DNA from: Thermococcus eurythermalis
GTDB lineage: Archaea > Methanobacteriota_B > Thermococci > Thermococcales > Thermococcaceae
Direction of reading: 5' to 3'
Length of the DNA: 64,000 nucleotides
NCBI RefSeq assembly: GCF_000769655.1
Contig: NZ_CP008887.1
Location: forward strand, 682,001 to 746,000
This document shows, piece by piece, positions 8,461-62,517 of this stretch; positions within the stretch are counted from its first letter, which is position 1; each line of letters begins with the position of its first letter. The translations under genes were made by a program, and so were the position numbers. The notes under the pieces are model-generated. The model saw nothing but the letters and a program-made list of their open reading frames with translations. It had not been told where the DNA came from and made no database searches.

Positions 8461-8640
8461 CCTCCTCCCCGCCCTAAAGGGCGAGGGTTCCAACGAGTTA
8501 ACCCCTCGCCAGTGATGGGGAGGTTTGAGGGGTTCTCATTAGGGCAACCCTTGAAAAGGGTTCTTCGAACCCCTCGGGGAGGGTCTTCCCCCCGTTACCC
8601 CTCCTCTGAGCATAAAGCCCGCCCAGATTCGGGGTTATGG
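8461..8640 (-). ncRNA. Candidate omega RNA (reRNA) overlapping the tnpB 3' end
   Basis: In characterised systems the TnpB guide RNA is transcribed from the 3' part of tnpB through the right end. Here that stretch is dense in hairpins: AACCC/GGGTT at 8546-8562, CCCTCCCC-type pairs around 8570-8590, and the terminal CGCCC/GGGCG at 8470-8483. The matching protein tail after residue 390 is low in recognisable fold, as expected where an RNA scaffold constrains the codons. The guide would be read from flanking DNA below about 8460. This is inferred by analogy; limits are rough. Confidence 0.35.
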
Positions 8641-9811
8641 TTTTCACAACCTTCTTCAAAATGTTGAAAGCACCAACTAAATCCGCGTTAAAAACAAGCC
8701 CCGTTGCGGGACACTTAAACAAACCCCTAACAAACCTCGCCCCCTCGTGAGGCTTCCCGCAGACAGGGCAAACCTTAGAAGTGAAAGCCTCACCAACAAT
8801 CAAAACCTCAATACCATACTCTTCCGCAACTTCCCTAAGACGCTTAATAACCGTATTGAACCGCCACACGTGGGAGAGGAGGAAGTTCTGCCTTTTGCCC
8901 CTATCAGAATTCCGAGCTATGCTCTTAGGATAACCAACGACAATTTTAGAAACTCCCAACTCGTAGAGCTTTCTAACCGTTCCTCTTACGGCAGTGTTAA
9001 TGTAGTGTTTAGCCTGAAGTTTCGCTTTATCGTGCATTCTCCTGAGTTTTCTACTCGCTTTAGCTCCACTCTTGTTGAGTTTTGACTGGTAGTCAGCAAT
9101 TTTTCTCCTCCAGTAGAAGTCAATGCTTTTAAGCGGTCTTCCATTGACCAGGAAACTCTCGCCATTCTCCACGTAAACGGCCATGAGATTGTTCACTCCC
9201 AGGTCAATGCCCGCTGAAAGGCTCCCTTGTGGCGTTCTTGGAACGCTTACCCATTCCCCACCCTCAAGTTTTTCCTCGACAGTAAGGCTAACGTGAGCAT
9301 ACCATTTCCGCTTAACGGGGTCGTAGGTTATCTCTAACCGCCCCTGCTTGCCCTTCAGGTGAATTCTTCCCTTAAACTGGACTTCAAGGCGTTTAAACTT
9401 GCCAAGGCCTTTGAAGATTAGTTTGTTCCCTTCAACCTTGTACTGGTCGTTCCTGAGAACGATTAAGGGTTTCCTCCTCCCGTCTTCTTTGAGGTAGAGT
9501 GGAGGTTTTGGTTTGAGCCAAGAGGGGAGTTCTCCATTCCTCTTCTTCCTCAGGAGTGAGAAGAAACTCCGCCAGGCTTCAGCGTTTTTTCTCGCTATCT
9601 GCTGAACCGTGGCAGAACCGATTTCTCGTTTAAACTCTTCGTAAACGGTTTTTTCAGTTGAATTGAAGTCCACGATTTTGTGTTGGAAGAATTCTTGTCG
9701 CCTCAAGTAGTTTACTCGGTTCCAGGCTTTGGCTCCTGAATCGGCTAACTGGTGGAGGATTTTTGCTTGTTCTTTAGAGGGCTGGAGTTTTACTGTTACT
9801 GAGCGCTTCAT
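8498..9811 (-). CDS. tnpB: TnpB, RNA-guided nuclease of the IS200/IS605 family
   Basis: The protein has 437 residues: a helical N-terminal half, a RuvC-like nuclease and a zinc-ribbon insert. RuvC-I is GIDLGVNNL with Asp203. At the usual RuvC-II site the sequence is IVVGYPKSIA, with Gly293 where many family members have Glu; a Glu is found instead at 341 in VGEAFTSKVCPVCG. RuvC-III is FNADLVGAFNIL with Asp377. The ribbon has Cys348, Cys351 and Cys367, but its fourth Cys is replaced (CPAT); His355 might substitute. TnpB proteins cut DNA matching a guide from the element's right end and help retain the element. The ORF is intact, with a TATA-like AAATTTATA upstream of the ATG. Confidence 0.93.
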   Translation of the reverse strand: MKRSVTVKLQPSKEQAKILHQLADSGAKAWNRVNYLRRQEFFQHKIVDFNSTEKTVYEEFKREIGSATVQQIARKNAEAWRSFFSLLRKKRNGELPSWLKPKPPLYLKEDGRRKPLIVLRNDQYKVEGNKLIFKGLGKFKRLEVQFKGRIHLKGKQGRLEITYDPVKRKWYAHVSLTVEEKLEGGEWVSVPRTPQGSLSAGIDLGVNNLMAVYVENGESFLVNGRPLKSIDFYWRRKIADYQSKLNKSGAKASRKLRRMHDKAKLQAKHYINTAVRGTVRKLYELGVSKIVVGYPKSIARNSDRGKRQNFLLSHVWRFNTVIKRLREVAEEYGIEVLIVGEAFTSKVCPVCGKPHEGARFVRGLFKCPATGLVFNADLVGAFNILKKVVKTITPNLGGLYAQRRGNGGKTLPEGFEEPFSRVALMRTPQTSPSLARG

Positions 9812-16327: not shown

Positions 16328-21529
<5,202 letters not shown>

Positions 21530-22952: not shown

Positions 22953-23534
22953 TCACTGGCCGGCGTCCACTCTTATTGTCAGCTTTACTCCATCAGTCTG
23001 GCACTCGTTGCCGGCTTCTTTAGGCAGTTCGAAGGTCATCTCGACCTGTGCGCTCTCATCTGGCTTGAGCATCTGTGGGAGCGTTATTGCCTTTCCGCTG
23101 AGTGAGTTGAGGGTTTCGTTGACTTTAATTTTCCTTCCGTTGACTGTGATTGCCCTCAGTGTCAGCCACTTTCCGAGTTCACCCTCTTCGGGTGTTGAGT
23201 CTACCTCCTTCTCCGCCGGCGACATCTTAACTTCGTAGTTCCTGACGTTTAGGGTCAGCGTGAGCCTTCCCATATCAACAGTGCCCCTGTTCTTGACGTA
23301 GAACGTTACAGTCCTGTTTTCTCCAGGGAGCAGGTTTTCTACCTCAAAGAGCTTCAGCTCGTTGTAGAAGCGCTTTCCGTCTTTGCTGATGGCAACGTCG
23401 AGCTCTCCGGTGGTTATGGTGTTGCCTTCGGAGAGCGCCGTGTCCGTGAAGTAAGACCTGGCCACGCCCGATAACGCCAGCATGGCCAGGATTGCGGACA
23501 CGATGGCCAGGTGTTTCATATTGACTGCACTCAT
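22953..23534 (-). CDS. TasA/camelysin-like secreted fibre protein
   Basis: The protein has about 193 residues. After a signal peptide (MKHLAIVSAILAMLALSGV) comes SYFTDTALSEGNTITTGELDVAI, the start typical of TasA/CalY proteins. The body is beta-rich and includes a CARDB-like turn (ENLLPGENRTVTFYVKNRGT). TasA-family proteins assemble into extracellular fibres or coats. I prefer the ATG at 23534, which follows GGTG; a second ATG at 23519 also leaves a full signal peptide. It lies just downstream of the DUF1616 gene in the same direction with a 63-base gap, and the pair resembles surface-protein loci of Thermococcales. Confidence 0.8.
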   Translation of the reverse strand: MSAVNMKHLAIVSAILAMLALSGVARSYFTDTALSEGNTITTGELDVAISKDGKRFYNELKLFEVENLLPGENRTVTFYVKNRGTVDMGRLTLTLNVRNYEVKMSPAEKEVDSTPEEGELGKWLTLRAITVNGRKIKVNETLNSLSGKAITLPQMLKPDESAQVEMTFELPKEAGNECQTDGVKLTIRVDAGQ

Positions 23535-23597
23535 TAGTAACACCGTAGACTATTGAAGAGATCGTTTATATACTTTTCGATACTGCCAAGTAATTGC

Positions 23598-24587
23598 TCA
23601 CTCAAGCACCTGTATATTCAGTTTAAGACTTTGGGTGGTTCCGTTTATGGCGTCCAGTATTAGGTTCTTGGCCTCTGTCTCGGCGTAGTTTCCGTCTGGT
23701 GGTGCCGGTGGGAGTTCTGGCGGTTCGTCTTTGAAGAGGAGGAACCATAGTTGCCACTTTCCGGGTCTGTTTATGCTGAAGGTGTAGTTCGTCTCGAACT
23801 GGGGCGTCCAGTTGCCTTCAATGTCCACTGGAACGTGAGGCAGAGTCACGTTGAACCAGCCGGGCATCGGGTACATCTCGTGGATTATGGTGGTGTTTGT
23901 AGTGTTGTCCCAGGTCAGGTTTACGAGCCAGGTCTGGACGTAGTATGTCACGTTCCTGTGTTCGTGGTTGACGATGCCGATTATTACTGTGGCGTTTTCT
24001 CCGATGAACAGCTCGGTTGGGTAATCAGCGGCCTTTCCCTCGGGCCCGAGGATGTAGAACTCTGTGAAGGCCTCGCCGGGCTTGGAATGTGTCACCACGT
24101 AGGCGAGGGTACCAATGGAGGTCATTATCGCGATTATAAGGACTACCGTCAGGGCCTTGTCGAGCCTGCTGGACTGCTCCCACCCAAGCTCCTCCTTTAT
24201 CTTTTCGAGCGTTATCCTGGGAACCCAGGGGTAGATTGCGTTCCTCCTGCGGTAGATGGCTATGAGCGCGAAGGCTACGTTGAAGGCCGTCAGGCTGACG
24301 AGGATTGGCTTGAGCCTTATGCCCCAGGGCGTGTAGTTGAGGCCGAGGCCTATGAGGGGGACGATGGCTATGCTCAGGCCGAAGCTCAGCGCGAGCCTCT
24401 CAAGGTTGTCGAGTTCTTTTTTCTCGGGGAAAAGGGCGGTTATGAAGACGTAGCCCGGGAAGAAGAGCACGAAGGCCAGCCCGAGGGCCTTCCTAAGCAG
24501 GCTGTCGGGGTAGAAAGCGATGAGGAAGTCAAGGATGAGCGAGAGCGCGATGATCGTTATCAGGTCCCAGTAGTCTCTCCAGTCCAT
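23598..24587 (-). CDS. DUF1616-family membrane protein
   Basis: The protein has 329 residues. Four N-terminal membrane segments (starting LITIIALSLILDFLIAFY, with the family mark FFPGYVFITALFP) are followed by a loop, a further membrane segment (ALTVVLIIAIMTSIGTLAY) and an extracellular domain of beta strands with NHEHRNVTYYVQTWLVNL and several N-x-S/T sequons. This matches DUF1616 proteins, which have no proven function and are often next to secreted surface-protein genes, as here. GGTGGTCGA precedes the ATG. Confidence 0.85.
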   Translation of the reverse strand: MDWRDYWDLITIIALSLILDFLIAFYPDSLLRKALGLAFVLFFPGYVFITALFPEKKELDNLERLALSFGLSIAIVPLIGLGLNYTPWGIRLKPILVSLTAFNVAFALIAIYRRRNAIYPWVPRITLEKIKEELGWEQSSRLDKALTVVLIIAIMTSIGTLAYVVTHSKPGEAFTEFYILGPEGKAADYPTELFIGENATVIIGIVNHEHRNVTYYVQTWLVNLTWDNTTNTTIIHEMYPMPGWFNVTLPHVPVDIEGNWTPQFETNYTFSINRPGKWQLWFLLFKDEPPELPPAPPDGNYAETEAKNLILDAINGTTQSLKLNIQVLE

Positions 24588-24646: not shown

Positions 24647-26032
24647 TTACCCGCGTAAAAGCAGCCTTTCAAGGTCCCTTAAATCCCAGCAGATTGCGCC
24701 ATTGGCCCTCTTTTTGAAGCTCTTCGCAATGATTAGAAACTCTTTTTTGCCTTTCCATTTGGTTAAATCTACCTTTTCCTTCAGGTCATTGAGGATGGCC
24801 TCGGCATTAACGCCGTCCCGCCACTTCACTTCAACGAACAAGGCCTTATCGCCTTTTATACCGACGAGGTCAATCTCGTAGCTGCCTTTCTTGGCCTTGC
24901 CCCATTGGGGCCCTATCTCCTCAAACTCCACAACACCTCTTTGGTTCAGTTCGACCAGAATGTCCCTGACGACTCTCTCGAATATCCTGCCGAAATATGT
25001 CGAGAAATTGGCCTCTATCTTCTTTATTAGAGCATCATAGTTTTCAGTTTCAACCAAACCCTGGTTTTTTCGTATGAACGTGAACCAGAAGTTTAGGAAG
25101 TAGTCACTAATAATATAGCGGGACTTTTTGGCCCTCTTTTCTAGAACAGGCTTTTCTCTCGAAATCAAGTTGAAATAATCTTCAAGGGATTTCAGGTATT
25201 TCGTTATGGTCGTTGGTTTCTGTGAAATTGCGTTCGCTATCTCCACGAGTGTGTTTCTGCCGCTTGCAATTGCCTCGAGTATAGAGAAGTATATTTTGTG
25301 GGCCCTCCCGAACTCCTCTATGAGAAGGGCCTCGCCCTCGCTCTGGAGGATTGATGAAAACCTGAGCATCTGCTCCAGAAAATCAAAGAAATTCTCTTCT
25401 TTGAAGAGCTCAAGATATTCGTAGTACTTCGGCACGCCGCCAAAAACACCGTAGAACTTTATTTTTTCCTCAAAGTCTTTCACACCCATGTCGTCGAGCA
25501 TCTGAAAGACCGTGCCAGGTTTTAATGGTTTGAGGTCTATGTAAAGGTCGCTCCTCCCGTACAGCGGTGACCTCCGGAGGAGGAACACTTTTCGCATCAT
25601 CCCGATGTAAGAGCCAGAAAGCACTATGAAGAACTTTTTGTCCTCCTTATACCTGTCCCAGAATTTCTGGAAGTCATGAACTATGGAGGGGTTTATCTTC
25701 AGGAAGTTCTGAAATTCGTCAAAAAACACGGCTGTCCTATCCTGTGTCCGGAACAGGAAGTTCATGAAATCCTCAAAACTTTCGAATTTGGGAGAATAGC
25801 CGAGTTTTTCTTCAATCTCCTCCCGAAAATCCTCCAGCAGAAGGCGCTCCTCCTTAACCGAGACAAAGAAGTCAAGGTACGGGATGTTTTTCCTTGAGAA
25901 AAATTCCTTAACAAGTCTTGTTTTCCCAATTCTGCGCCTGCCCGTGATTATGACCAGCGAAGACCTGGTATCAGTAAGGCCAAAGCTTTTTTCCAGAGCT
26001 TCAAGTTCCCTCTCTCTGTTATAGAATTTCAT
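24647..26032 (-). CDS. Archaeal AAA-type ATPase with DUF234-like C-terminus
   Basis: The protein has 461 residues. The Walker A motif is TGRRRIGKT at 30-38 and Walker B is AVFFDEFQNF. The sensor strand is FFIVLSGSYIGMM, followed by a winged-helix region (IANAISQKPTTITKYLKSLED). The C-terminal DUF234-like region contains EIDLVGIKGDKALFVEVKWRD, a restriction-endonuclease-like D...E-x-K pattern. Proteins of this kind are numerous in Thermococcales and poorly understood. It is a single gene at the edge of the glycan island. Confidence 0.9.
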   Translation of the reverse strand: MKFYNRERELEALEKSFGLTDTRSSLVIITGRRRIGKTRLVKEFFSRKNIPYLDFFVSVKEERLLLEDFREEIEEKLGYSPKFESFEDFMNFLFRTQDRTAVFFDEFQNFLKINPSIVHDFQKFWDRYKEDKKFFIVLSGSYIGMMRKVFLLRRSPLYGRSDLYIDLKPLKPGTVFQMLDDMGVKDFEEKIKFYGVFGGVPKYYEYLELFKEENFFDFLEQMLRFSSILQSEGEALLIEEFGRAHKIYFSILEAIASGRNTLVEIANAISQKPTTITKYLKSLEDYFNLISREKPVLEKRAKKSRYIISDYFLNFWFTFIRKNQGLVETENYDALIKKIEANFSTYFGRIFERVVRDILVELNQRGVVEFEEIGPQWGKAKKGSYEIDLVGIKGDKALFVEVKWRDGVNAEAILNDLKEKVDLTKWKGKKEFLIIAKSFKKRANGAICWDLRDLERLLLRG

Positions 26033-26115: not shown

Positions 26116-26358
26116 TCACCCGCTCAGGACTTCGTAGACTTTCTTCATCACCACTATGGCGAATATAACGAGAAGGAGCTCGACGAGAGGCTTCAGGTTT
26201 TCCTTCTGCTCCCTGCTCAGGAACAGGCCGCCAACCTCCAGTGTTATCAAAAGCCCTATCAGTGCCAGGGTTAGGAAAACGTCGATACTTCTCGTCGCTA
26301 ACGCGGATATGAGAACCCACGCTGACAGGAAGAGCAGAATGTAGTCCTCTACATCCAT
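26116..26358 (-). CDS. Small membrane protein
   Basis: The protein has 80 residues with three hydrophobic segments (ILLFLSAWVLISALA, VFLTLALIGLLITLEV, LVELLLVIFAIVVM). The ATG is preceded by a strong GGGGGAG ribosome site, and the gene overlaps by ten bases the end of the truncated upstream frame, so the two were probably one operon. No family is recognised. It is the last intact gene before the island junction. Confidence 0.65.
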   Translation of the reverse strand: MDVEDYILLFLSAWVLISALATRSIDVFLTLALIGLLITLEVGGLFLSREQKENLKPLVELLLVIFAIVVMKKVYEVLSG

Positions 26359-26444
26359 TCCCTAACTCCCCCGAGCTTTCTGGCCTTTATCTCGACGCCG
26401 TAGTCCTTCTTCTCAAAGTTCTCCACGCCTATGAGGTTGTCCAT
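26349..26444 (-). pseudogene. C-terminal remnant of a truncated gene at the island edge
   Basis: A 31-codon frame from the ATG at 26444 reads MDNLIGVENFEKKDYGVEI and ends VREWM before a TAG. Codon use is of the GC-rich housekeeping type. Going upstream, the frame runs into DNA that on the other strand is the glycosyltransferase at 26447, so the 5' part of this gene has been replaced. Family not recognised. Confidence 0.5.
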
Positions 26445-26446
26445 TT

Positions 26447-27511
26447 GTGAAAGGTGGAGTTGAAAAAAGAGTATACGAGATAGGAAGGAGACTTGCGAAA
26501 AAACATGAAGTTTATTGGTATGGCCTAGACTGGAGGGATTTAACAGAGATCAAGCTTCACAAGGTCGGACGATGGTTGTCTCTCTACTCTGGAGGCAGAC
26601 GTTCCATTAGGGGGGCGGTATACTTTGCAGTGAAGCTACTTTCCAAATTTAATGGGAGTTATGATATCGTAGACTGCCAGCAATTTCCGTATCTCTCTTG
26701 CTTCTCAATTAAGTTTCACTCGGCCCTAAAAAACATCCCTCTGGTGGTCACGTGGCACGAAGTTTGGGGAGAATACTGGATGGAGTACCTGGGAAGTTTG
26801 GGAGTATTTGGGGCTCAAATAGAAAAATTAACGAGTAAACTGACGACAAACAATATTTCTGTCTCTAAACTAACTCAAAAGAGACTGAGGTCTTTGGGAG
26901 TGACGAGCGAGTTTATTCCGAACGGTATTGATTTTGAGAAAATAAGCAAGGTGAAAAAAGCAGAGGATGAGTACGATGTGGTCTTCGTGGGACGTCTGAT
27001 TAAAGAGAAAAATGTTGAGTTGCTCTTAGAGGCACTAGTGGAAGTGAAGAAAAATATGCCAGACATTAGTGCTCTCATAGTAGGAGACGGGCCGGAAAAG
27101 TATCAGCTGGAAAAATTAGCCTTTGACTTAGGGCTGTCTGAAAATGTGAAATTTGTGGGATTCCTTGAGTCACATGATGAGGTAATCTCATACATGAAAT
27201 CATCAAAAGCCTTCGTTCTCCCTTCAAAAAGAGAAGGCTTTGGTATAGTGGCTCTGGAAGCAAACGCTTCCGGCCTGCCTGTAGTGACAGTGAACTATCC
27301 AATGAACGCTGTCGAGGGTTTAATAATACACGGGTACACTGGCTTCGTATCGCAACCCTCTCCGACCTCCCTAGCAAAATATATTGAAATATCGCTCTCT
27401 CGTGGAAAAAAGCTTAAAAGAAACTGCATAAAAAACGCCAAACGGTATGACTGGAGCAACATAGCCGAATTAACAGAAAAATTTTATGAGAGGGTTCTAG
27501 ATGGGCGTTGA
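26447..27511 (+). pseudogene. GT4 glycosyltransferase lacking its N-terminus
   Basis: The frame of 354 codons begins at a GTG and reads VKGGVEKRVYEIGRRLAKKH. The paralogue at 47238 has 17 residues before the same point (MGETLRIAFVYDVIYPW), which form the first Rossmann strand of the GT-B fold. Here an in-frame TGA at 26432 and unrelated DNA replace them. The rest is intact: NGIDFEKISKV, VVFVGRLIKEKN and REGFGIVALEANASG with the E-x7-E motif. It may be inactive or start weakly from GTG. Its end overlaps the next gene by 11 bases. GT4 enzymes transfer a sugar from a nucleotide donor. Confidence 0.7.
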
Positions 27512-28622
27512 AGTTTCAGTGATTTTGCCAACCATGAACGAAGAAAAGGCAGTTGCTAAGATTATAAGCCAGATAAAAGAGACCCTCGAGCAGATGGGGA
27601 TATCTTACGAGATCATAGTTGTGGACAAGAGCAGTGATAGGACTCCAGAAATCGCAAGAAACCTGGGTGCAAAGGTTGTTCGGCAGAAAAGAAAGGGCTA
27701 CGGGGATGCATATTTAGAGGGCTTCGCGGTTGCAAAGGGGAAGTACATTGTAATGATGGATGCGGACGGGAGCTATGACCCAAGGGACATCCCAAAGTTT
27801 CTGGAGATGCTGAAAAATGAAGATGTTGATTTTGTCATGGGTACGCGGTTGAAAGGCGAGATCAAACCCGGGGCCATGCCCTGGTTGCACCGCTACGTGG
27901 GAAACCCTCTCCTGACGAAGATCCTGAATTTATTTTTCAAGGCAGGAATTTCCGACGCCCACTGTGGATTCAGGGCGATAAAACGGGAGGCCCTTGAGAA
28001 GCTTCCCCTAAAATGTAGGGGCATGGAGTTCGCGAGCGAAATGGTGATAGAGGCGGCAAAGGCCGGTTTAAGGATTGCGGAGGTGCCTATAACTTATTAT
28101 CCAAGAATTGGGGACTCAAAGCTTCACTCGTTCAGGGACGGGTGGAGGCACCTGAGGCTGATGCTCCTCTATTCGCCCTCTTATCTATTTTTACTTCCGG
28201 GGCTGTTTTTGGTTATCATTGGTTTTGGTCTCATAGCTTACGCTTACAATACGGATCCGTTGAGAATGCACACTATGATCTTGGGAAGCCTTTTGACAAT
28301 AGTGGGCTTTCAGGTGATAAATTTCGGAATATCTGGAAAGGTCTACGCCGTCAAAGAAGGGCTGGATAGGCCTGACAGAATAACTAAGTTTTTCATGAGG
28401 TATTCAATTTTGGAGGAAGGGCTCATACTCGGTGGGACACTGTTTGTTGCGGGCTTGACTTTGGGCGTAAGGATATTCCTGAAGTGGAGGGAGGCAGGAT
28501 ATGGTGAGCTGTTTGAGGTAAGGTCAGCCATAATTGTCCTGACTCTGATAGCGCTGAGCATCCAGCTTATATTCTTCTCCTTCTTTATAAGCTCTCTAAT
28601 GTTGAAGGAGGGCTTTGAGTGA
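27501..28622 (+). CDS. GT2 glycosyltransferase with C-terminal membrane segments (dolichyl-phosphate sugar synthase-like)
   Basis: The protein has 373 residues. The GT-A domain opens VSVILPTMNEEKAVAKII, has the DxD motif at Asp87-Asp89 (MMDADGSYD) and the lid HCGFRAIKREALEKL. After residue 225 come four membrane segments. This architecture is that of polyprenyl/dolichyl-phosphate glucose or mannose synthases, which load sugars on a lipid carrier at the inner face of the membrane. It overlaps the truncated GT4 upstream by 11 bases and the GT4 downstream by four (GTGA), so it is in an operon. Confidence 0.88.
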   Translation: MGVEVSVILPTMNEEKAVAKIISQIKETLEQMGISYEIIVVDKSSDRTPEIARNLGAKVVRQKRKGYGDAYLEGFAVAKGKYIVMMDADGSYDPRDIPKFLEMLKNEDVDFVMGTRLKGEIKPGAMPWLHRYVGNPLLTKILNLFFKAGISDAHCGFRAIKREALEKLPLKCRGMEFASEMVIEAAKAGLRIAEVPITYYPRIGDSKLHSFRDGWRHLRLMLLYSPSYLFLLPGLFLVIIGFGLIAYAYNTDPLRMHTMILGSLLTIVGFQVINFGISGKVYAVKEGLDRPDRITKFFMRYSILEEGLILGGTLFVAGLTLGVRIFLKWREAGYGELFEVRSAIIVLTLIALSIQLIFFSFFISSLMLKEGFE

Positions 28623-29680
28623 GGGTTCTGATAGTTTCTCCCTACTTTTACCCGGAAGGGGGTGGGCTGGAGAGGTACGCATACGAAATGGTCAAAGAGC
28701 TGAGTAAAGAGAATGAAGTGGTCGTCGTGTGTTCCACAAAGGAAGCAGATAGGCACGAGAAAATTGGAAAAATCGAGGTTTTGAGGAAAAAACCTGACTT
28801 TATTCTCTCGAACACTCCGATTAGGCTTTTTCTCCCCTTTGAGCTCCTGAAAATGATGAAAAGAGAGAATTTCGAGCTTTTAATTGCCCATACTCCAGTT
28901 CCTTTTTTTGCCGATGTGGCATCCTTTGTTGCCACGCTTTTGAAGAAGCCAGTGGTCATTGTTTATCACTCCGGAGAGCTCAAAAAGGGCTCATGGGTGG
29001 ATCTTCTCGCAGGGCTTTATGAGAGGACTGTTGAAAAAATAACGCTGAAAAACGCCAGATTGGTTTCGGTTTCTAGGTACGTTCAAAGGGTTCTGTGGAA
29101 AAAGGGGTTTTATTCGAAGGTGAAATACCCGAAAGTTAGTGAAGAGTTCCTTCTCGCCAAGCCCGATTTCAAAGGGGAAGGGAACGTTATCCTCTTCGTG
29201 GGGCAACTGGGAAAGTTCCACAGGTGGAAGAACCTAGACTTACTGTTACGGGCATTAGTTCTAGTCAAAAGGGAGATTCCCAACGTTAGACTTATCATAA
29301 TCGGAGATGGAGATTTGAGAGGATACTATGAAGAGCTGTCCAGGGAACTGGGCCTTGAGAGCAACGTTAGGTTCCTTGGCTTTGTGAGCAAAAAAGAGCT
29401 GATAGAGAACTACAAGAAGGCCAGGCTTCTGGTTCTGCCTTCGTCTAAAAGCGAGGCCTTTGGAATGGTAGTCCTGGAAGCGTTGGCTTTAGGGACGCCA
29501 GTTATAACGAGCAAAGCAGGGGAATTTCCAGTAATTGTCGAAGAAAAAAAGAATGGCCTCCTGGCCGAATTGGACGAAAAAGACCTTGCGGAGAATATTC
29601 TGCTCCTGCTGAACGACGAAAAGACAAGAAGGAAAATGGCGATAATCGGAAGGAAAACGGTTAGACGCTTCACTTCCTGA
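28619..29680 (+). CDS. GT4 glycosyltransferase, C-terminus cut short
   Basis: The protein has 353 residues and starts at GTG inside a GTGA overlap with the previous stop. N-terminal MRVLIVSPYFYPEGGGLERY and C-terminal SKSEAFGMVVLEALALG (E-x7-E) identify a GT-B enzyme of family GT4 that uses a nucleotide sugar. The chain stops at GRKTVRRFTS, whereas paralogues in this window continue about 20 residues with a W-x-E-containing helix (as in YDWEEIVDVLERYYQEL). The end coincides with the boundary of the convergent gene, suggesting a recombination joint there. Activity is uncertain. Confidence 0.8.
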   Translation: MRVLIVSPYFYPEGGGLERYAYEMVKELSKENEVVVVCSTKEADRHEKIGKIEVLRKKPDFILSNTPIRLFLPFELLKMMKRENFELLIAHTPVPFFADVASFVATLLKKPVVIVYHSGELKKGSWVDLLAGLYERTVEKITLKNARLVSVSRYVQRVLWKKGFYSKVKYPKVSEEFLLAKPDFKGEGNVILFVGQLGKFHRWKNLDLLLRALVLVKREIPNVRLIIIGDGDLRGYYEELSRELGLESNVRFLGFVSKKELIENYKKARLLVLPSSKSEAFGMVVLEALALGTPVITSKAGEFPVIVEEKKNGLLAELDEKDLAENILLLLNDEKTRRKMAIIGRKTVRRFTS

Positions 29681-46456: not shown

Positions 46457-46936
46457 TCCCAATTGCCAGACCTTTGATTTGCGAAGAAGAAATAAATGTG
46501 GTAACTGAAGGTTTTGAAGAGCGGAATGCTTGCAAGCGGAAAGGAAGTTGAGGCTTTTGAAAAAGAGTTCGCCCAATACTTGGGAGCAAAACATGCTATT
46601 GCAGTGACCACCGGTACCACGGCTTTGGATGTTGCCTTAAAAGTCCTCAAAATCGGCCCCGGCGATGAGGTCATCACAACGCCCTTCACATTCATAGCCT
46701 CTTTAAACTCAATCCTCTTCCAAGGAGCAAAGCCCGTTTTTGCAGACATAGATCCAAAGACGTTCAACCTCGACCCAAACGATGTTCTTGAAAAAAATAA
46801 CAGACAAAACCAGAGCAATTCTAGTAGTTCACCCCTACGGCCAGCCTACTAACATGAAGACCTTTAAAGAGATTGCCAAGGACTACAAGCTTTATCTAAT
46901 TGAGGACTGCGCCCAACCCACGGTGCAGAGTTTATG
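46453..46936 (+). pseudogene. N-terminal part of a DegT/DnrJ-type aminotransferase
   Basis: The start MIPIARPLICEEEIN is followed, after a frameshift near 46510, by KSGMLASGKEVEAFEKEFA and AIAVTTGTTALDVALKVL. A second shift lies in an A7 run near 46790 (LEK then ITDKTRAILVVHPYGQ), and a third lies near 46912 (EDCAQ then HGAEFM). The sequence is typical of PLP-dependent sugar aminotransferases. It stops abruptly at 46936, where the C-terminal half would continue as CQKVGTYGD, found inverted at 45993. Confidence 0.8.
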
Positions 46937-47186
46937 TCATGTGCGGGCCGAGAAAAATGTCATCTTCGACTTTTACTCCACGATAAACGCTCACTCCGTT
47001 CTGGATTTTAGCGTTGTTGCCTATCTCGACTCCGACGTCAATGTAAACGTCCTTCCCTATGTTGCAGTTCCTGCCTATTTTGGCGCCCTTCCTTATGTGG
47101 GCGAAGTGCCATATTCTAGTCCCTTCCCCAATTTCAACGTCATCTTCAACAACAGCTAAGGGATGAACGAAATACTTTTGAGCCAT
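46937..47186 (-). pseudogene. N-terminal part of a sugar N-acetyltransferase
   Basis: From the ATG at 47186 the minus strand reads MAQKYFVHPLAVVEDDVEIG, then hexapeptide repeats (GEGTRIWHFAHIRKGAKIG, NCNIGKDVYIDVGVEIG) and ends DDIFLGPHM at the breakpoint. This is the start of a WbpD-like left-handed beta-helix acetyltransferase. The missing part begins [11 protein letters not shown] and is found at 45994 on the other strand. GGTG precedes the ATG. Confidence 0.78.
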
Positions 47187-47237
47187 TTGGGACACCAAAT
47201 TTTAATAAAGCAGGAAAATTATAAGCTTTTGGTGGCT

Positions 47238-48374
47238 ATGGGAGAAACGTTAAGAATAGCGTTTGTTTACGATGTGATTTATCCATGGGTAAAAGGAGGC
47301 GTTGAAAAAAGGATCCATGAACTAGCCAAGCGGCTTGCAAAGAAACACGAAGTTCACGTATTCGGCTACAAGCTCTGGAATGGAAAAGAGGTTATTGAGA
47401 GAAGTGGAATTTTTTATCACGGGACGATAAGAGCTAAGAAAATTTACAGTAATGGAAGAAGGGCAATAACCCCTCCTCTGCTCCATGCCCTTAAGCTAGT
47501 TCCTTTATTTAGAAATGAAAAGTTTGACGTCATAGACTGCCAGGCTTCCCCATACTTTCCGGCGTATTCCTCTAAAGCTGGTGCAATGTTTCAAAATTCA
47601 AAGCTAATCATAACATGGCATGAATTCTGGGGGAAGTATTGGTTTGAATACTTGGGAAAAGCTGGCATGTTTGGACAAGCGACTGAGAGGGGGCTCTTTG
47701 AGTTAACAGATAGCCACGTGGCGGTTTCTTTGAAAACAAAAAGAGACCTCTATAATGCAGGACTAAGGAAAGATGTACACGTTATTCCCAATGGGATAGA
47801 CTTCAAAAGGATACAGAAAATAGAACAGGCTGAGTTGGAATCAGATATCATATTTGTGGGACGCTTGGTTAAAGAGAAAAACGTTCCTCTTTTGCTAAAT
47901 GCAATTAGAGTTATCAAAGAAGAAATTCCTGACATTAAAGCTCTTATCGTTGGGAATGGCCCAGAGCGGAAGAATTTGGAGAATTTGAGCAAAAGCTTGG
48001 GTACTTCGGACAATGTAGAGTTTTTGGGGTTCTTGGAGAGCCACGATGATGTAATTGCTCACATGAAGGTCTCTAAGGTCTTTGCGTTCCCCTCCTTGAG
48101 AGAAGGGTTTGGAATCGTAGTTCTGGAGGCAAATGCATCTGGCCTGCCTGTCGTTACGGTCAATTATGAGATGAACGCTTCAAAGGACTTAATTGTAAGT
48201 GGCAAGAACGGATTCGTCAGCGAACTCAACGAAAAGGACTTTGCAGAAAAGATTTTAACTGCACTTGAAAGGAGGAGAAAAATGAAAAGCATTGCCATAA
48301 ATATTGCGAGTATGTATGATTGGGAAGAGATAGTTGATGTGCTTGAAAGGTACTATCAGGAGCTTATATGTTAG
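47238..48374 (+). CDS. GT4 glycosyltransferase
   Basis: The protein has 378 residues. The ATG at 47238 follows GGTGG; an earlier in-frame start at 47163 would cross the broken acetyltransferase. The motifs are RIAFVYDVIYPWVKGGVEKR, VIPNGIDFKRIQ, IIFVGRLVKEKN and the E-x7-E in REGFGIVVLEANASG. It is the full-length paralogue of the truncated gene at 26447, with which it shares long stretches of near-identical protein. It opens the plus-strand run. Confidence 0.9.
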   Translation: MGETLRIAFVYDVIYPWVKGGVEKRIHELAKRLAKKHEVHVFGYKLWNGKEVIERSGIFYHGTIRAKKIYSNGRRAITPPLLHALKLVPLFRNEKFDVIDCQASPYFPAYSSKAGAMFQNSKLIITWHEFWGKYWFEYLGKAGMFGQATERGLFELTDSHVAVSLKTKRDLYNAGLRKDVHVIPNGIDFKRIQKIEQAELESDIIFVGRLVKEKNVPLLLNAIRVIKEEIPDIKALIVGNGPERKNLENLSKSLGTSDNVEFLGFLESHDDVIAHMKVSKVFAFPSLREGFGIVVLEANASGLPVVTVNYEMNASKDLIVSGKNGFVSELNEKDFAEKILTALERRRKMKSIAINIASMYDWEEIVDVLERYYQELIC

Positions 48375-48453
48375 GGTCATCTAAATTTCAGTTTGGACAC
48401 CAAAGATTTTTAACTTTTGTAGATGAGTGTCTTATAAGGGTGTGAAGAGCAGT

Positions 48454-49626
48454 ATGAGAGTTGCAATGATAATAGAAGCTTGGGAGCCCATATGGGGTGG
48501 GGGACAAGTTCATGTGTATGAAATTTGCAAGAGGCTAGTTAAGCGTGGAGTTGAAATTGATTTGTATGTGATGGCATTAAAAGATAAATATGGTAATGTT
48601 TATGCTGAAAATGAAGAACTTTTTGGGGGAAAGTTGAGGATAATTAGAGTTGGATTTCCAAGGTCGTTTACTTTTTTGAACAGAATTTTCTGGGTTTTTG
48701 AAGTTATGAAGGCAATTGTGCACAACCATAAAAAAGCTCCTTATTCATTAATTCATGCTCACGCAAATTTACCTGGATTGCCTGCGAAAATTCTTTCGAG
48801 GTTACTTAATATTCCTGTCTTATATACTGTCCATGGGAGTGGCATTGAGGCTTTAGAAAGGATGTATGGAAGGGGAATTAAAAGTAGAATTCTACATATG
48901 TTTGAAGTTTTTTTGCAAAGAAAAATCGAATATAATATTGAGATGACAGTGGATAGGAGATTCTTGAAATATCCTAACGTAAATAGGCCAATCTACATCC
49001 CAAATGGGGTCGACGTTAAGAAGTTTGATAAAATTAGTGTTGCAAAAAGTAAAATGTTCAAAATCCTGTTTGTGGGGCGTATTCATCCACAAAAGGGTCT
49101 GAGGTATCTAGTTGAGGCTATTAAAGAAATACAGGGGGAATTTGATGGAAATATGGGGGTTGTAGTAATTGTGGGGGGAAGCGCTGAGTGGACACCTGAA
49201 GAAAAAGAAGTTCGTGCGCTTATTAAAAAATTGGGCTTGGAGAGATATTTCATTTTTAAGGGAAAACTATCCGAGAAAGAGCTTTTGAAGGAATACAAAT
49301 CGTCTACACTTTTTGTCCTTCCGTCTCTCTTTGAGGGTATGCCTCTAACTTTACTTGAGGCATGGGCTTCAAAGCTCCCGGTTATAGCAACTAAAGTCGG
49401 CGAAAATCCATATCTAATAAAACACAGATATAATGGGTGGTTAGTTGAGCCGGGGAATGTTGAAGATCTTGCAGAGGCTTTAAGAGATGCGTTAAATACT
49501 CCTAGAACAAAGCTTGAAATAATGGGGGGGAGGGGTTACATGATAGTTTTCGAGAAGTTCAATTGGGACGATATAGCTGAGCGTCTGCTAATATTATATA
49601 CCAAGGCTCAACATTTAGCCAATTAA
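48454..49626 (+). CDS. GT4 glycosyltransferase
   Basis: The protein has 390 residues. The opening MRVAMIIEAWEPIWGGGQVH is the GT-B N-terminal motif, and HAHANLPGLPAKIL, VYIPNGV-type PIYIPNGVDVKKF, LFVGRIHPQKGLRYL and FEGMPLTLLEAWASK follow in normal order. The ATG at 48454 was preferred to one at 48427. The DNA is AT-rich from here to 53.8 kb, unlike the flanking housekeeping genes, which suggests acquisition from another source. Confidence 0.9.
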   Translation: MRVAMIIEAWEPIWGGGQVHVYEICKRLVKRGVEIDLYVMALKDKYGNVYAENEELFGGKLRIIRVGFPRSFTFLNRIFWVFEVMKAIVHNHKKAPYSLIHAHANLPGLPAKILSRLLNIPVLYTVHGSGIEALERMYGRGIKSRILHMFEVFLQRKIEYNIEMTVDRRFLKYPNVNRPIYIPNGVDVKKFDKISVAKSKMFKILFVGRIHPQKGLRYLVEAIKEIQGEFDGNMGVVVIVGGSAEWTPEEKEVRALIKKLGLERYFIFKGKLSEKELLKEYKSSTLFVLPSLFEGMPLTLLEAWASKLPVIATKVGENPYLIKHRYNGWLVEPGNVEDLAEALRDALNTPRTKLEIMGGRGYMIVFEKFNWDDIAERLLILYTKAQHLAN

Positions 49627-49642
49627 GTAGTGGTGGGTTATT

Positions 49643-50467
49643 ATGAAAACCCCTAATGTCTCGGTGTTACTGCCTGTTGCTAATGAACCACTAAAATATG
49701 TAAAGTTAAGCCTTAGAAGTATTATTAATCAGACGTATCGAAATCTAGAAATCATCGTACTTGTTGATAGACCAGATAATAAAGAAGTTGTTGAGTATAT
49801 AAAAGCTGAGCAAGAAAGAGATAACAGAATTAGATTACACGTAAATCAACGTCCTTTAGGTCTTACGAAGACATTAAACGTTGGTATTTCAATGGCTTCT
49901 GGGGTATATATAGCTAGAATGGATGCGGATGACATAAGTCTACCAACTCGCATTGAACGTCAAGTGGCGTTTATGGAACAGAATCCCGACTATGGTTTAT
50001 GTGGTACCAAGGCATACTTTATAAACGAAGAGGGGAAACTTATACTGAATCCTAAGATTTCACTTAATAATAACATAGTTACACATGAGAACATCCAACG
50101 AGCTATATTAAGATTTAATCCATTCATACATTCATCGATTTTACTAAGAACTCAAACCTTAGAGCAAATTGGGGGTTATAATGAAAGGTTTGAAACTAGC
50201 CAGGATTATGAATTATGGCTGAGGGTATGTAGAAGATATAAATGCTATATACTCCCTAAACGTTTGATTCTCTATAGAATACGAACTCATGGAATTAGCT
50301 ACAGCAAGATGAGGACTTCTCTTAAATATTCTCTTTGTGCTAGATACTTGGCGATAACAAAATACGGGTATCCCAAGTGGGGGATTATATATTTAATTTG
50401 GCCAACAATTTCATATATTGTGCCAGTACGAATTAAGCAAATAATCTTTAGGAGGCATCTGAGATGA
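49643..50467 (+). CDS. GT2 glycosyltransferase
   Basis: The protein has 274 residues. The GT-A motifs are VSVLLPVANEPLKYVKLSL, LVDRPDNKE, the DxD in ARMDADDISLP (Asp94, Asp96) and the acceptor-site block ETSQDYELWLRVC. It resembles bacterial and archaeal enzymes that add hexoses to surface glycans. GGTGG precedes the ATG and the end overlaps the next gene by four bases (ATGA). Confidence 0.9.
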   Translation: MKTPNVSVLLPVANEPLKYVKLSLRSIINQTYRNLEIIVLVDRPDNKEVVEYIKAEQERDNRIRLHVNQRPLGLTKTLNVGISMASGVYIARMDADDISLPTRIERQVAFMEQNPDYGLCGTKAYFINEEGKLILNPKISLNNNIVTHENIQRAILRFNPFIHSSILLRTQTLEQIGGYNERFETSQDYELWLRVCRRYKCYILPKRLILYRIRTHGISYSKMRTSLKYSLCARYLAITKYGYPKWGIIYLIWPTISYIVPVRIKQIIFRRHLR

Positions 50468-51594
50468 ATAAAAAACTTAAAATTGGATTAATCTTTACCT
50501 TTAACGTTTCCCTAAAAACGTGGAAAGAAAAAGGTCTTTTCTCAAGAGAAATTAGACTGTATGAGGAACTTTTAAATCAGAACCCAAATTTGGAATTGTA
50601 CCTTTTTACCTATGGGGAGCACGACAGAGAATATGAACAAGAGCTCCCAGCAAATATAACTGTTGTTCCAATGCCGAGGATTTTTAACTGTTATTTTGGT
50701 AAGATCCTATACTCGGTTTTAATGCCATTAATTCACCGAAACTTGTTTAAGGATCTCGATATTATAAAAACCAACCAGATGATTGGTGCATGGACAGCCA
50801 TGATAGCGTCTTGGCTTTTTAAAAAACCATTGATTGTCAGAACTGGGTATACTTGGAGCCTGTTCGAGAAAAATAAAATCAAAAAAATCATTGCAGATTT
50901 ATTGGAGAGTATTTCATGTAAAAAGGCAGATGTGTATTTAGTTGCCTCTCGTGAGGATAAAATGTATCTTCTTAGGAAACACAAATGCGAGGTATGTAAA
51001 ATATTGCCAAATTATGTGGATACTAATAGATTTAGACCACTTTCTGTTTCAAAGCAAAGATTATCTGCTGTATTTGTAGGTAGGTTTGTTTCTCAAAAAA
51101 ATTTAGATGTTTTGATACAAAGTCTTGAGAAGTTACCAAGTGTATGTCTCTCTCTTTATGGTCATGGGGAGTTATTGGGGTATCTCGAGCAATTAGCAAG
51201 GGCTCTTAGAGTCTGTGTGCATTTTTTTGCTCCAGTTCCTAATGAAGAGATTCCCCTTATTCTAAACAAGTATCAAATATTTGTACTCCCATCATTATAT
51301 GAAGGCATGCCTAAGGCTTTGCTTGAGGCTATGTCTTGTGGTCTTGCGTGTATTGCCACTAACGTTCCAGGTAATAGAGAAGTTATTGACCATATGAAAA
51401 CTGGACTGCTCGTAGATGTTTCTCTTGATTCGATCAGGGGGGCAATCTTTATATTGGTATTCAATCCAAAATTGGCCAAAAAGCTTGGTCGAACTGCAAG
51501 GAATAAACTTATGAAAGATTATAGTTTACAAGTAATTGCCAAACAAGAACTCTGCTTATACCATGCTATAACTAATAGGGGTGTTCATAAATGA
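50464..51594 (+). CDS. GT4 glycosyltransferase
   Basis: The protein has 376 residues with a GT-B fold. Recognisable blocks are LPNYVDTNRFRPL, AVFVGRFVSQKNLDVL, LYGHGELLGYLEQL and the E-x7-E in YEGMPKALLEAMSCG. The N-terminal domain is diverged and lacks the usual glycine-rich turn (FNVSLKTWKEKGLFSRE), as often in enzymes with a different acceptor. It overlaps both neighbours by four bases, so the run 49643-52553 is one tightly coupled unit. Confidence 0.88.
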   Translation: MNKKLKIGLIFTFNVSLKTWKEKGLFSREIRLYEELLNQNPNLELYLFTYGEHDREYEQELPANITVVPMPRIFNCYFGKILYSVLMPLIHRNLFKDLDIIKTNQMIGAWTAMIASWLFKKPLIVRTGYTWSLFEKNKIKKIIADLLESISCKKADVYLVASREDKMYLLRKHKCEVCKILPNYVDTNRFRPLSVSKQRLSAVFVGRFVSQKNLDVLIQSLEKLPSVCLSLYGHGELLGYLEQLARALRVCVHFFAPVPNEEIPLILNKYQIFVLPSLYEGMPKALLEAMSCGLACIATNVPGNREVIDHMKTGLLVDVSLDSIRGAIFILVFNPKLAKKLGRTARNKLMKDYSLQVIAKQELCLYHAITNRGVHK

Positions 51595-52553
51595 TATTGA
51601 TAACGGGAGTGGCTGGATTTATAGGCTTTCATTTGGCAAGAACTCTCCTTGAACAGGGGGAGGATGTTATTGGAGTTGATAACCTTAATCCCTATTACAG
51701 TGTGAAGCTAAAAGAGAAAAGATTGGAAATCTTGAGTGAGTATTCAAACTTTTCCTTTATAAAGACGGATCTTGGAAACTGGAATGAGTTTTATTCTTCG
51801 CTTAAGGATGTTCCAATTGATTTAATAGTGCATCTTGGGGCTCAGGCGGGGGTAAGGTACTCTCTAGAAAATCCATGGGTATATATTCACTCAAATGAAT
51901 ACGGGACACTCAACGTATTTGAACTAGCAAGAAGAAAAGATGTTGAACAAGTTGTTTATGCATCTTCATCCTCAGTATATGGAGGGAATACTAAGATACC
52001 ATTTTCGGAAAACGATAGGGTGGACAAACCGATATCACTCTATGCAGCAACAAAAAGAGCAAATGAGCTGATGGCTTATACGTACCATCACCTTTATGGT
52101 ACAAGAATGATAGGGTTACGATTCTTCACGGTTTATGGTGAATTTGGTCGCCCTGATATGGCGTATTTTAAGTTTGCCAAGAATATAATGCTTGGTAAGG
52201 AGATTGAGATCTATGGATATGGAAAGTTAAAGAGGGATTTTACTTATATCTCCGACATTGTAGAGGGAATTAAGAGAGCGATGAGCCTGGACACGGAGTA
52301 CGAAATAATAAACCTTGGTAACAATAGGCCCGTAGAACTAGACTATTTTGTATCCCTGCTTGAAAAGTATCTGGGAAAGGAGGCCAAGAAAAAGTACGTT
52401 GAAAAGCCAAAGGCTGACGTTGAGATAACTTATGCAGACATAACAAAGGCGAAAGAGATTTTGGGATGGGAACCAAAAGTAAAAATTGAAGATGGCTTGA
52501 AGAAGTTCTGCGACTGGTTCGTAAAAAATTGGGAGTGGATAAAAACCATTTGA
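51591..52553 (+). CDS. NAD-dependent nucleotide-sugar epimerase, UDP-glucuronate 4-epimerase-like
   Basis: This 320-residue protein is a short-chain dehydrogenase of the extended type. The NAD motif is GVAGFIGFH, and DNLNPYYSVKLKEKRL is the signature of CapI/GAE-like UDP-glucuronate 4-epimerases. The catalytic residues are Ser near 127, Tyr151 and Lys155 (YAATK). It would interconvert UDP-glucuronate and UDP-galacturonate, using the product of Ugd encoded at 56718. The last third of the gene is richer in GC than the rest, which may mark a recombination joint. Confidence 0.85.
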   Translation: MILITGVAGFIGFHLARTLLEQGEDVIGVDNLNPYYSVKLKEKRLEILSEYSNFSFIKTDLGNWNEFYSSLKDVPIDLIVHLGAQAGVRYSLENPWVYIHSNEYGTLNVFELARRKDVEQVVYASSSSVYGGNTKIPFSENDRVDKPISLYAATKRANELMAYTYHHLYGTRMIGLRFFTVYGEFGRPDMAYFKFAKNIMLGKEIEIYGYGKLKRDFTYISDIVEGIKRAMSLDTEYEIINLGNNRPVELDYFVSLLEKYLGKEAKKKYVEKPKADVEITYADITKAKEILGWEPKVKIEDGLKKFCDWFVKNWEWIKTI

Positions 52554-52559
52554 CCGAAA

Positions 52560-53078
52560 TTGTTTGTGGGGGAATATATTATGAATATGGAGTATGTCCT
52601 GAGTTCCTTAAGAAAAATTAGATATAGACGATATATACAGTTCGGTAAAGGAGTGCGGATATATGGGAGACTAATTATAATAGGGAAGAAAAAAAATATA
52701 AAAATTGGAGATTATTCAACATTAAATGAGGGTGTTCTCCTAAACGCAAGAGATAAAATAATAATAGGCAGATACTGCCGTATTTCACCGTATGCTCAAT
52801 TACATACTGGGGGACTTGACTTAACTAAGCCTTATACAAATAGGCCTCATATATCTAAGCCAATAATAATAGAAGACGGTGTTTGGATAGGGGCTGGAGC
52901 AATCATTCTTCCAGGAGTTAAAATCGGAGAAGGTAGTGTTATAGCTGCTGGTGCCGTTGTCACGAAAGATGTTCCACCTTATGAACTTTGGGGGGGGTGT
53001 TCCTGCAAAAAAGATAAAAGACCTGAAATAAAATGGAAATGGACAATAAAACGAATACTACTGAGTGTAGGAGGGTGA
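52560..53078 (+). CDS. Left-handed beta-helix acyltransferase with out-of-frame C-terminus
   Basis: The frame of 172 codons begins with the ATG at 52560-52586 region (MEYVLSSLRKIRYRRYIQ preferred). Hexapeptide repeats and IEDGVWIGAGAIILPGVKIG identify an O-acetyltransferase of the WbbJ/maltose acetyltransferase type. After PPYELWGG the expected family ending VPAKKIKDLK is present in the DNA, but in another frame: a run of eight G (52990-52997) shifts the reading by one, giving CSCKKDKRPEIKWK instead. With seven G the protein would end near 53032. The repeat core is complete either way. Confidence 0.78.
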   Translation: MFVGEYIMNMEYVLSSLRKIRYRRYIQFGKGVRIYGRLIIIGKKKNIKIGDYSTLNEGVLLNARDKIIIGRYCRISPYAQLHTGGLDLTKPYTNRPHISKPIIIEDGVWIGAGAIILPGVKIGEGSVIAAGAVVTKDVPPYELWGGCSCKKDKRPEIKWKWTIKRILLSVGG

Positions 53079-53082
53079 TGAA

Positions 53083-53835
53083 ATGAGCTATAACCTTGGA
53101 ATATTAAAAACTTTGTTGTGTGATCGAAAATTCAGAGTACCACGTATGTGGTCTAATAATGAACTTAAAAAATTTGCTCATTTATTTAGTGGCAGGGTTA
53201 TTAATGTAAGCGGTTGGAAAGATATTGATAAGGAGGGTAGCAGGTACAAAGATTATTTTGTGAATGCTGAAGAATACTGGATTTCAAATTATAAATCGGA
53301 ATATCGGGGTTTTCAAGGGACTCTGGAAAATGAAATATTCTTGGATTTAACGCAACCCTTGCCTAAAGAATTAAGACATAAATTTGATGTTGTATTTAAT
53401 CATACTACACTAGAACATATATTCGATGTATTTACAGCTTTTAAAAATCTATGTGAATTAAGCAAAGACATAGTTATAATAGTTGTTCCGTTTATCCAAG
53501 AGCAACATGCGGATTATGGGGATTACTGGCGATTTACACCACTTGCTATAAGAGAATTATTTAAAAGAAACGGGTTGGAACTTATATATATAAATTTTAA
53601 TGACTGGTCTAATAGTAGCATTTACATCTTTGCAATTGGATCAAGACACCCAGATAAATGGGAAAAAATACGAAATCACCCCGATAATAAACTGAATTAT
53701 ATTGATAATTATTTTGTTGGAACAAAAATAATTAGAAACTCAATTCTATATAACATTTTTACAATCACTAAAAACTGCTTGCAATATTTGAAAAATTTAA
53801 GATATAAAATAAAAATGCGAAACGTAAAACGTTGA
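53083..53835 (+). CDS. Class I SAM-dependent methyltransferase-like protein
   Basis: The protein has 250 residues. The central block FDVVFNHTTLEHIFDVFTAF is the post-II region of Methyltransf_11-type enzymes, and VIIVVPFIQEQHADYGDYWRF follows as in sugar-modifying methyltransferases. The SAM-binding glycine loop is weak (SGRVINVSGWKDIDKE), so cofactor binding is not certain. GGAGGGTGATGA precedes the ATG. It is the last gene of the plus-strand run and lies in AT-rich DNA. Confidence 0.72.
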   Translation: MSYNLGILKTLLCDRKFRVPRMWSNNELKKFAHLFSGRVINVSGWKDIDKEGSRYKDYFVNAEEYWISNYKSEYRGFQGTLENEIFLDLTQPLPKELRHKFDVVFNHTTLEHIFDVFTAFKNLCELSKDIVIIVVPFIQEQHADYGDYWRFTPLAIRELFKRNGLELIYINFNDWSNSSIYIFAIGSRHPDKWEKIRNHPDNKLNYIDNYFVGTKIIRNSILYNIFTITKNCLQYLKNLRYKIKMRNVKR

Positions 53836-54114
53836 ACATTACAAATATTGTATCTCTCCCAAATTACGTTCTCAATTAACTTCTGTAAACTCTCTTTCTC
53901 TAAAAGCCAACCAAGTAATAGACATTCATATATTACTTGTATTCATTTAATTCTAATAGATGGCCTTTAATACGTTGGATTAGCTCTCTTTCTATGTCCG
54001 AGAGAGATTAAATTGCTTGTCGTTTGTGGATTTAAATAATCTCTGAGTTGTAGATGAGACTTCCGGTGTGCATTTATTTGCAATTTTCTCTTTAAAAAGA
54101 ATGAAGAGTTATAC
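53836..54114. other. Gene-free AT-rich gap between convergent runs
   Basis: Between the ends of two convergent runs lie 279 bases with no convincing gene. On the minus strand a short frame ending NEYK (IERELIQRIKGHLLELNEYK, about 24 codons around 53935-54010) has coding character but no start and may be a relic. T-rich tracts near both gene ends could terminate transcription. Confidence 0.4.
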
Positions 54115-55005: not shown

Positions 55006-55015
55006 TTTTATCACC

Positions 55016-59227: not shown

Positions 59228-59265
59228 AGACCTCAAAACTGATAAAAAAGGAGCGGTATAAAAAC

Positions 59266-60261: not shown

Positions 60262-60307
60262 GGTTCTTCCCTCCCCGATATCTCAACATAACAAAGCTAT
60301 AAACTTT

Positions 60308-60715
60308 TCATCGTATTCCAAGGGCCTCCCGCCGGTACATCCTTAGATAGTAGGAATAATCGTGGTACTCCCTCATGGTCATCTCCTCAAAATCACACCT
60401 GGCCCTCTCGTCCCTGCTGAAGAGGAGCAGGCCCCCGATGGCCCGGAACCTGAAGGTCACCGGTGCGTTGTTGAGAAGCCTGACATCGACGGGAAGCCCC
60501 ATCAGCCTTGAGAGCTCCTCTTCAAGCTCTTCCTCGTAGAATGGAGGGGCATTGCCCTTTACATAAACGGCAATATCAACGTCCCTGAAGGGCCTATCTT
60601 CAGTAAATGAGCCGTGCAGGTAAGCAAAAACTACCTCCTTCATTTTCAGGAGGTGCTCTCTGAGTAACTCAATGATTTTTTCCTTCTCTTCCTTGCTCAG
60701 CGTGTAAACCTGCAT
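60308..60715 (-). CDS. MNT-type nucleotidyltransferase-fold protein
   Basis: The protein has 135 residues. The minimal nucleotidyltransferase motif is LHGSFTEDRPFRDVDIAVY, with the GS and the D-x-D pair. Such proteins are usually encoded beside a HEPN ribonuclease toxin and silence it by AMP transfer; no HEPN gene is adjacent here. Its C-terminal part is helical (MREYHDYSYYLRMYRREAL). It is divergent from the epimerase gene. It may act in trans or have lost its partner. Confidence 0.82.
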   Translation of the reverse strand: MQVYTLSKEEKEKIIELLREHLLKMKEVVFAYLHGSFTEDRPFRDVDIAVYVKGNAPPFYEEELEEELSRLMGLPVDVRLLNNAPVTFRFRAIGGLLLFSRDERARCDFEEMTMREYHDYSYYLRMYRREALGIR

Positions 60716-60794
60716 GGTAAAAGATTGGGGATTGAATACAAAAAACTTTCCTAAAGCTTAATAACAGCCCCTCGAACTTTTGGTGGTGATAAAA

Positions 60795-61860: not shown

Positions 61861-61870
61861 TAATTCTCCT

Positions 61871-61948: not shown

Positions 61949-61950
61949 TC

Positions 61951-62506: not shown

Positions 62507-62517
62507 CGGGGAGTAAA

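Follow-up and report, generated by a model that had tools for sequence, protein, structure and literature searches.

N-glycosylation gene clusters of Haloferax are described as variable and recombining, and most of the genes transferred among haloarchaea are reported to enter by homologous recombination (PMC5867893). The glycan gene island considered here lies in a 64,000-nucleotide stretch of the Thermococcus eurythermalis genome (contig NZ_CP008887.1, positions 682,001 to 746,000; hereafter the window, with positions counted from its first letter). It resembles the Haloferax clusters of that account in being rich in glycosyltransferase genes, in carrying an AglB-like gene, in differing between relatives and in bearing traces of recombination and transfer, but differs from them in having a joint that is resolved to 3 bp and appears to be non-homologous. 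Archaeal end joining is described as error-prone and accompanied by loss of DNA (PMC7690668). The joint in the window recalls the microhomology-mediated form treated there in that a short sequence is shared and flanking DNA has been lost; it departs from that form in that its 3 bp are near chance, about 5% of random joints sharing at least as much.

The glycan cluster of a second Thermococcus genome (G011) matches the window in the order and orientation of a GT4-GT2-GT4 series and later genes, with gaps, as far as the AglB-like gene, and in its right flank. It differs in that its GT4 gene is intact and preceded by a TATA-like motif, in an IS605-type hairpin at its HAD/GT4 border, and in that neither a gene here called gene X, nor the first gene of the operon that accompanies gene X in relatives, nor the window genes 46782-56718 in order were found there. 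Homology-facilitated illegitimate recombination is a bacterial mechanism in which one flank is homologous and the other joint forms with few shared bases. The window joint is similar in having at most a few shared bases and differs in that a homologous second endpoint was not located in the window. The joint is a new instance of known processes, not a new kind of event, and amounts to ordinary genome mosaicism; it is not described in the literature found among open-licence PMC articles by titles and abstract openings. Its significance is that one joint in the shuffling of a hyperthermophilic archaeal surface-glycan locus has been fixed to three bases, that the apparent edge of an island is a break with a conserved operon missing next to it, and that annotation of the 354-aa GT4 of this T. 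eurythermalis genome as an intact enzyme should be avoided. The comparisons below demonstrate a fusion point at which the GT4 gene has lost its first 11 codons, and neither the 5' part of gene X nor the first gene of the operon was found in the genome.

The joint at positions 26440-26442

At 26440..26442, left-type DNA stops and right-type DNA starts, with the triplet TCC common to both parental types. In alignments, homology to a left-type relative (G023, a MAG) stops at 26442 and homology to the right-type relative G011 starts at 26440. Identity to G023 is 61/63 at 26380-26442 and then 25/78 at 26443-26520, and identity to G011 rises from 12/53 at 26380-26432 to 68/81 at 26440-26520, about 25% being expected for unrelated DNA. 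The two genes at the joint, gene X and the GT4 gene, face away from it and are both cut relative to their orthologues. The joint, at which DNA of two versions of the glycan gene region appears to have been joined end to end, is confirmed; the preliminary description had proposed a recombination joint from the cutting of two genes at one point and had placed an in-frame TGA at 26432, and both the switch in homology and the stop codon bear this out.

Since TCC is the only sequence shared at the joint by the window, G023 and G011, the joint appears to be non-homologous or microhomology-based. The triplet is near the chance level and weak as a trace: because 5.4% of random joints between the two proxy loci (G023 and G011) share at least three bases, against the three observed, the microhomology is not proof of mechanism. 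No hairpin of IS605 type lies at the joint, the pattern occurring in the window only at 8464 (exact) and 9888 (three mismatches), and no tRNA gene lies there, those of the window being confined to 61783-62629.

Two genes cut at one point

The 3' remnant of gene X occupies 26349..26444 on the minus strand and holds about 30 codons; its ATG at 26444 was created by the joint. A search with its 31 residues matched 23 of 61 genomes of the genus, the window's own among them, and the other 22 matches sit in open frames of 143-297 codons, the frame of 143 being cut by a contig end. Loci were fetched for 17 of these 22 genomes (L048-L063 and L067; five were not fetched), and in them intact gene X encodes 246-297 aa. 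In G023 (contig DRGF01000190.1) it encodes 246 aa and is followed by the same small ORF as in the window, and over 32 aa the remnant shares 84% identity with the C-terminal end of that protein. With that 246-aa protein as query the own genome returned the remnant only, and the 5' part was not found. A profile search with alignment A1 placed gene X in 45 of the 61 genomes; among the 60 others it was present in full in 42, cut by contig ends in two (G034, G052) and unmatched in 16, some of which are incomplete. The C-terminal 31 residues standing alone in mid-contig were seen in the window's genome only, and a scan of genome contigs with the same alignment gave six loci.

The minus-strand frame had been proposed to be a cut gene that would be full length where the island is absent or different, and the homologues in the 17 fetched relatives and the 42 complete copies agree with this; the profile search of 61 genomes yielded no intact orthologue of the small frame's own length. 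Its description as housekeeping-type was not borne out, the G023 protein matching nothing in Pfam at E 0.001 and the gene itself going unmatched in 16 of 60 genomes. A sign of relaxed selection in the remnant (four non-synonymous to one synonymous change relative to G023; Fisher p 0.027 on 1/4 versus 30/10, with the small ORF counted by script as 28/12) was dropped, two of the three changed residues also occurring in the B45 homologue (L069).

Right of the joint, 26447..27511 on the plus strand encodes a GT4 glycosyltransferase that, from Pfam matches, homologues, models and structural alignment, lacks its start codon and first beta-strand along with the region that lies upstream in its G011 orthologue. 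The gene comprises 354 codons from GTG 26447 and matches PF00534 (group 1 C-terminal domain, 3.4e-45) and PF13439 (GT4 N-terminal domain, 5.2e-20). Its best match, the G011 GT4 (62% identity), starts with MKIAYVYDAVYPF ahead of VKGG, of which the window retains PF only; 13 residues precede the V in G011, so that 11 codons have been lost, and a protein started at GTG 26447 would be 13 residues short. A beta-strand motif directly upstream of VKGG is found in all 19 homologues fetched, which were taken from 25 matches in other genomes, and is absent from the window GT4. The open frames that hold the 25 matches all have 372-459 codons, compared with 358 in the window, the G016 frame having an internal stop; a scan of genome contigs with the GT4 found no relative.

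The preliminary description had the GT4 lacking its first 17 residues, with homology to the paralogue at 47238 beginning at P-x-V-K-G-G. This holds against the paralogue read from ATG 47238, in which 17 residues precede VKGG, where the homology starts; against G011 the figure is 13, with PF still encoded. GT4 orthologues starting at VKGGVEKR, which would have spoken against a truncation, were not seen, all 19 fetched carrying the strand upstream. The paralogue is listed as a 403-aa ORF at 47163-48374, and its likely start at ATG 47238 gives MGETLRIAF, matching homologue starts of the type MESLRIAF.

A model of the window GT4 (five-sequence alignment, mean pLDDT 71.8) opens with a helix at 4-17 and no prior strand, and in a model of the intact paralogue (read from 47238; mean pLDDT 68.7) a strand at 6-10 comes ahead of the corresponding helix; the N-terminal half is largely of low confidence in both, and the folding of the shortened domain is not to be inferred from them. 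When the window model is aligned with solved structures, its first aligned residue (1, 2 or 4) corresponds to chain residue 10 or later in the 50 entries listed. The N-terminal Rossmann-like domain of the window GT4 is incomplete and without its first beta-strand.

A shortened protein could be made. The in-frame TGA (26432..26434, plus strand), which comes from left-type DNA, closes the GT4 frame upstream, and GTG 26447 is the sole near in-frame start. Nine nt ahead of it lies GAGGT (26433..26437, plus strand), a Shine-Dalgarno-like motif likewise from left-type DNA, with which the GTG could start a shortened GT4. Of 5465 NTG triplets scored across the window, about 10% are preceded by a stretch whose pairing with the anti-Shine-Dalgarno sequence is as good as that of GAGGT. 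In G011 a TATA-like TTTTTAAA begins 33 nt ahead of the GT4 ATG; in the 80 nt upstream of the window GT4 the best match to the TTTTTAAA octamer scores equally (6/8) but stands at -61, and TTTATATT lies at -377. The window GT4 is probably inactive, and the most that could be made of it is a shortened protein starting at GTG 26447. It is improbable that the GT4 is instead alive in a changed role, with a ribosome-binding motif drawn from the antisense strand of the broken gene, and that a cluster of G011 type and the DUF4129-MoxR operon are mutually exclusive, an exclusion suggested because the two genomes that most share the cluster (the own genome and G011) yielded no copy of the first gene of the operon.

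Two layouts of one locus

Two arrangements of this chromosomal region recur among relatives. In layout A, HAD, M73 and DUF1616 genes, a small ORF and gene X follow one another, gene X being divergent to an operon of DUF4129/DUF4350/MoxR/DUF58 type; in layout B, the HAD gene is followed directly, or after one or two genes, by the GT4-GT2 glycan genes. Gene X stands divergent to a large gene heading such an operon in 17/17 fetched loci. The large gene encodes 577-622 aa (in L058 it is broken into two frames, of 488 and 129 aa), and in the 16 loci where the contig continues, frames of about 340, 312, 430 and 185 aa come next, one being split in L059 and one lying on the other strand in L062. The operon of L051 has DUF4129, DUF4350, MoxR AAA and DUF58 domains; the first operon gene of G023 is 44% identical to that of L051, with domain matches only below curated cut-offs. 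The first gene of the operon was found in eight of 10 genomes tested and not found in the other two, the own genome and G011. GT4-GT2 genes lie near the HAD-phosphatase gene, and not beside the gene X block, in 7/7 other genomes examined (G011, G002, G005, G013, G019, G021 and G032), directly at HAD in G011 and elsewhere with an OST-like gene, sometimes with room for one more, between; the third gene after the pair differs in G032. In G002, G005 and G013 the operon and divergent gene X are inverted at the far end of the island. From these 17/17 and 7/7 counts, the window reads as layout A up to the joint and layout B beyond it. The joint had been taken for the left edge of the glycan island; a break is there, but it is not the usual island edge, which in the fetched loci with an intact gene lies beyond the large divergent gene (and, in the 16 of 17 whose contig continues, the operon) that separates gene X from the variable genes. 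Four further loci (L091-L094, in G016, G006, G020 and G008) have a lone GT4 of the same family beside counterparts of the genes at 59266 and 60780, present as fragments in G016, and no GT4-GT2 cluster.

We lean, with some reserve, towards the joint being a non-homologous fusion, with microhomology of at most 3 bp, of these two alternative layouts of one locus. DNA of one layout would have entered a cell of the other, paired by homology on one flank and been joined without homology at the 26440-26442 end, whether by homology-facilitated illegitimate recombination or by microhomology end joining, and the small ORF and DUF1616 gene would have been parted from their operon in consequence. The immediate parental layout was not found in any genome examined, and because its GT4 is only 62% identical, G011 is not a recent donor. 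Such a one-sided homologous exchange is moderately preferred to a plain deletion, in which an ancestor with gene X, operon and GT4 cluster in a row lost everything between roughly codon 215 of gene X and GT4 codon 12, and with it the operon and the promoter of the GT4. Deletion is a possibility to which we give tentative credence, as a single event requiring no foreign DNA: in a layout-A chromosome followed by the island it would give an identical joint, the orientations fit (gene X minus; operon and GT4 plus), glycan genes do follow the operon in many layout-A loci, and in G012 homologues of 56718 (79%) and 55858 (52%) stand directly behind it. However, GT4-GT2 lies near HAD rather than behind the operon in all seven other genomes examined, no GT4-GT2-GT4 row of the window's type stands behind the operon in the stretch fetched from G012, G031 and G009, and the relatives of the left block switch just ahead of the joint.

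The joint is known from the assembly alone, and the matches to its two sides stand side by side in none of 60 other genomes, as would be the case had two unrelated stretches been misjoined. Such an artefact is very improbable: the contig around the joint is 2.12 Mb long and belongs to a two-contig assembly rated 99.99% complete, in relatives the two sides form part of a single locus, the right flank (59266, 60780) agrees with G011 in order and orientation, and neither the 5' part of gene X nor the operon gene was found elsewhere in the assembly. An inversion breakpoint, the lost halves then lying somewhere else in the genome, recalls the inverted operon-gene X block at the far island end in G002, G005 and G013; barring later deletion of the other half, it is refuted by the search of the own genome, in which the 5' part of gene X was not found, and is scarcely credible. 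Hardly more tenable is the absence of any joint, with the GT4 starting natively at GTG 26447 behind its GAGGT motif and the small frame a chance ORF, a reading that is not supported by the homologue and remnant evidence: the additional strand is there in 19/19 homologues fetched, and the small frame matches the end of the G023 protein at 84% identity over 32 aa.

Mosaic flanks

The DNA on either side of the fusion is itself composite. To the left, all on the minus strand, lie camelysin-like (M73) and DUF1616 genes (22953..24587), which form the rest of the left-type block by gene order in relatives, an ATPase_2/DUF234 gene (24647..26032) between the DUF1616 gene and the small ORF, and the small ORF itself (26116..26358), membrane-type by its hydrophobic sequence and following gene X in relatives as well. 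The ATPase gene is identical to G023 at 1343/1353 nt (99.3%); the G023 contig ends within it, so that the comparison goes no further left. In a 15-kb sample of G023, matches of at least 180 bases are 71-88% identical and shorter ones down to 68%, so that G023 is ruled out as a sister genome; because of its 99.3% against this 71-88%, the ATPase gene looks recently mobile. The same place is occupied in G056 by a short piece related to it (L053:6992-7255) and in G018 by an ATPase of another kind, AAA_14/DUF4143 (L054:1601-2872).

As the small ORF is only 83.5% identical to G023 between two closer stretches, the left block is a mosaic. The last 122 nt ahead of the joint are 94% identical to G023, with seven mismatches, against 38 in the preceding 205 nt; seven in 122 nt at 16-18% divergence has p 5e-4 to 7e-5 for a stretch picked after inspection. 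An 18-kb sample elsewhere in the chromosome, of which the first 4.5 kb does not separate genomes, had its longest hits, among the matches listed, in G012 (86%) and G031 (87%), then G009. The rubrerythrin, HAD and M73 genes, though not DUF1616, are closest to the same three genomes; for the small ORF and the remnant G023 is closest, the three ranking well below it in the small ORF. The closest relatives thus switch somewhere between M73 and the small ORF, and the DNA that adjoins the joint on its left seems to have been exchanged recently, as a mosaic. Further left, a ribonucleotide reductase gene of 1727 codons (16328-21511) contains two intein-splicing domain stretches and LAGLIDADG domains.

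To the right, the truncated GT4 is followed by GT2 and GT4 genes (27501..29680, plus strand) in the order of G011. Gene order is common with G011, with gaps, from the GT4 to the AglB-like gene (42507), whose Pfam matches are weak and below cut-offs, and again at 57986-60780, the genes at 59266 and 60780 agreeing in order and orientation; no ordered counterpart of window genes 46782-56718 was found in the G011 island. Because homologues of 56718 and 55858 stand behind the operon in G012, some of the DNA to the right may have belonged to layout A all along, and the island too is a mosaic. GC content is 0.52-0.55 in most left genes (0.449 in the ATPase gene), 0.37-0.48 in the genes of 26447-59236 and 0.535 at 59266-61739. 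Just past the right end of the low-GC island, ARAGORN identified genes for tRNA-Glu(CTC), tRNA-Ile(GAT) and tRNA-Gln(CTG) at 61783-62629. Far to the left, at 8464-9811, lies an IS605-type TnpB gene (OrfB_IS605, Cas12f1-like) with the hairpin pattern at its end, and the same pattern occurs at the HAD/GT4 border of G011 (L064:9714-9736), where there is no room for a transposase gene.
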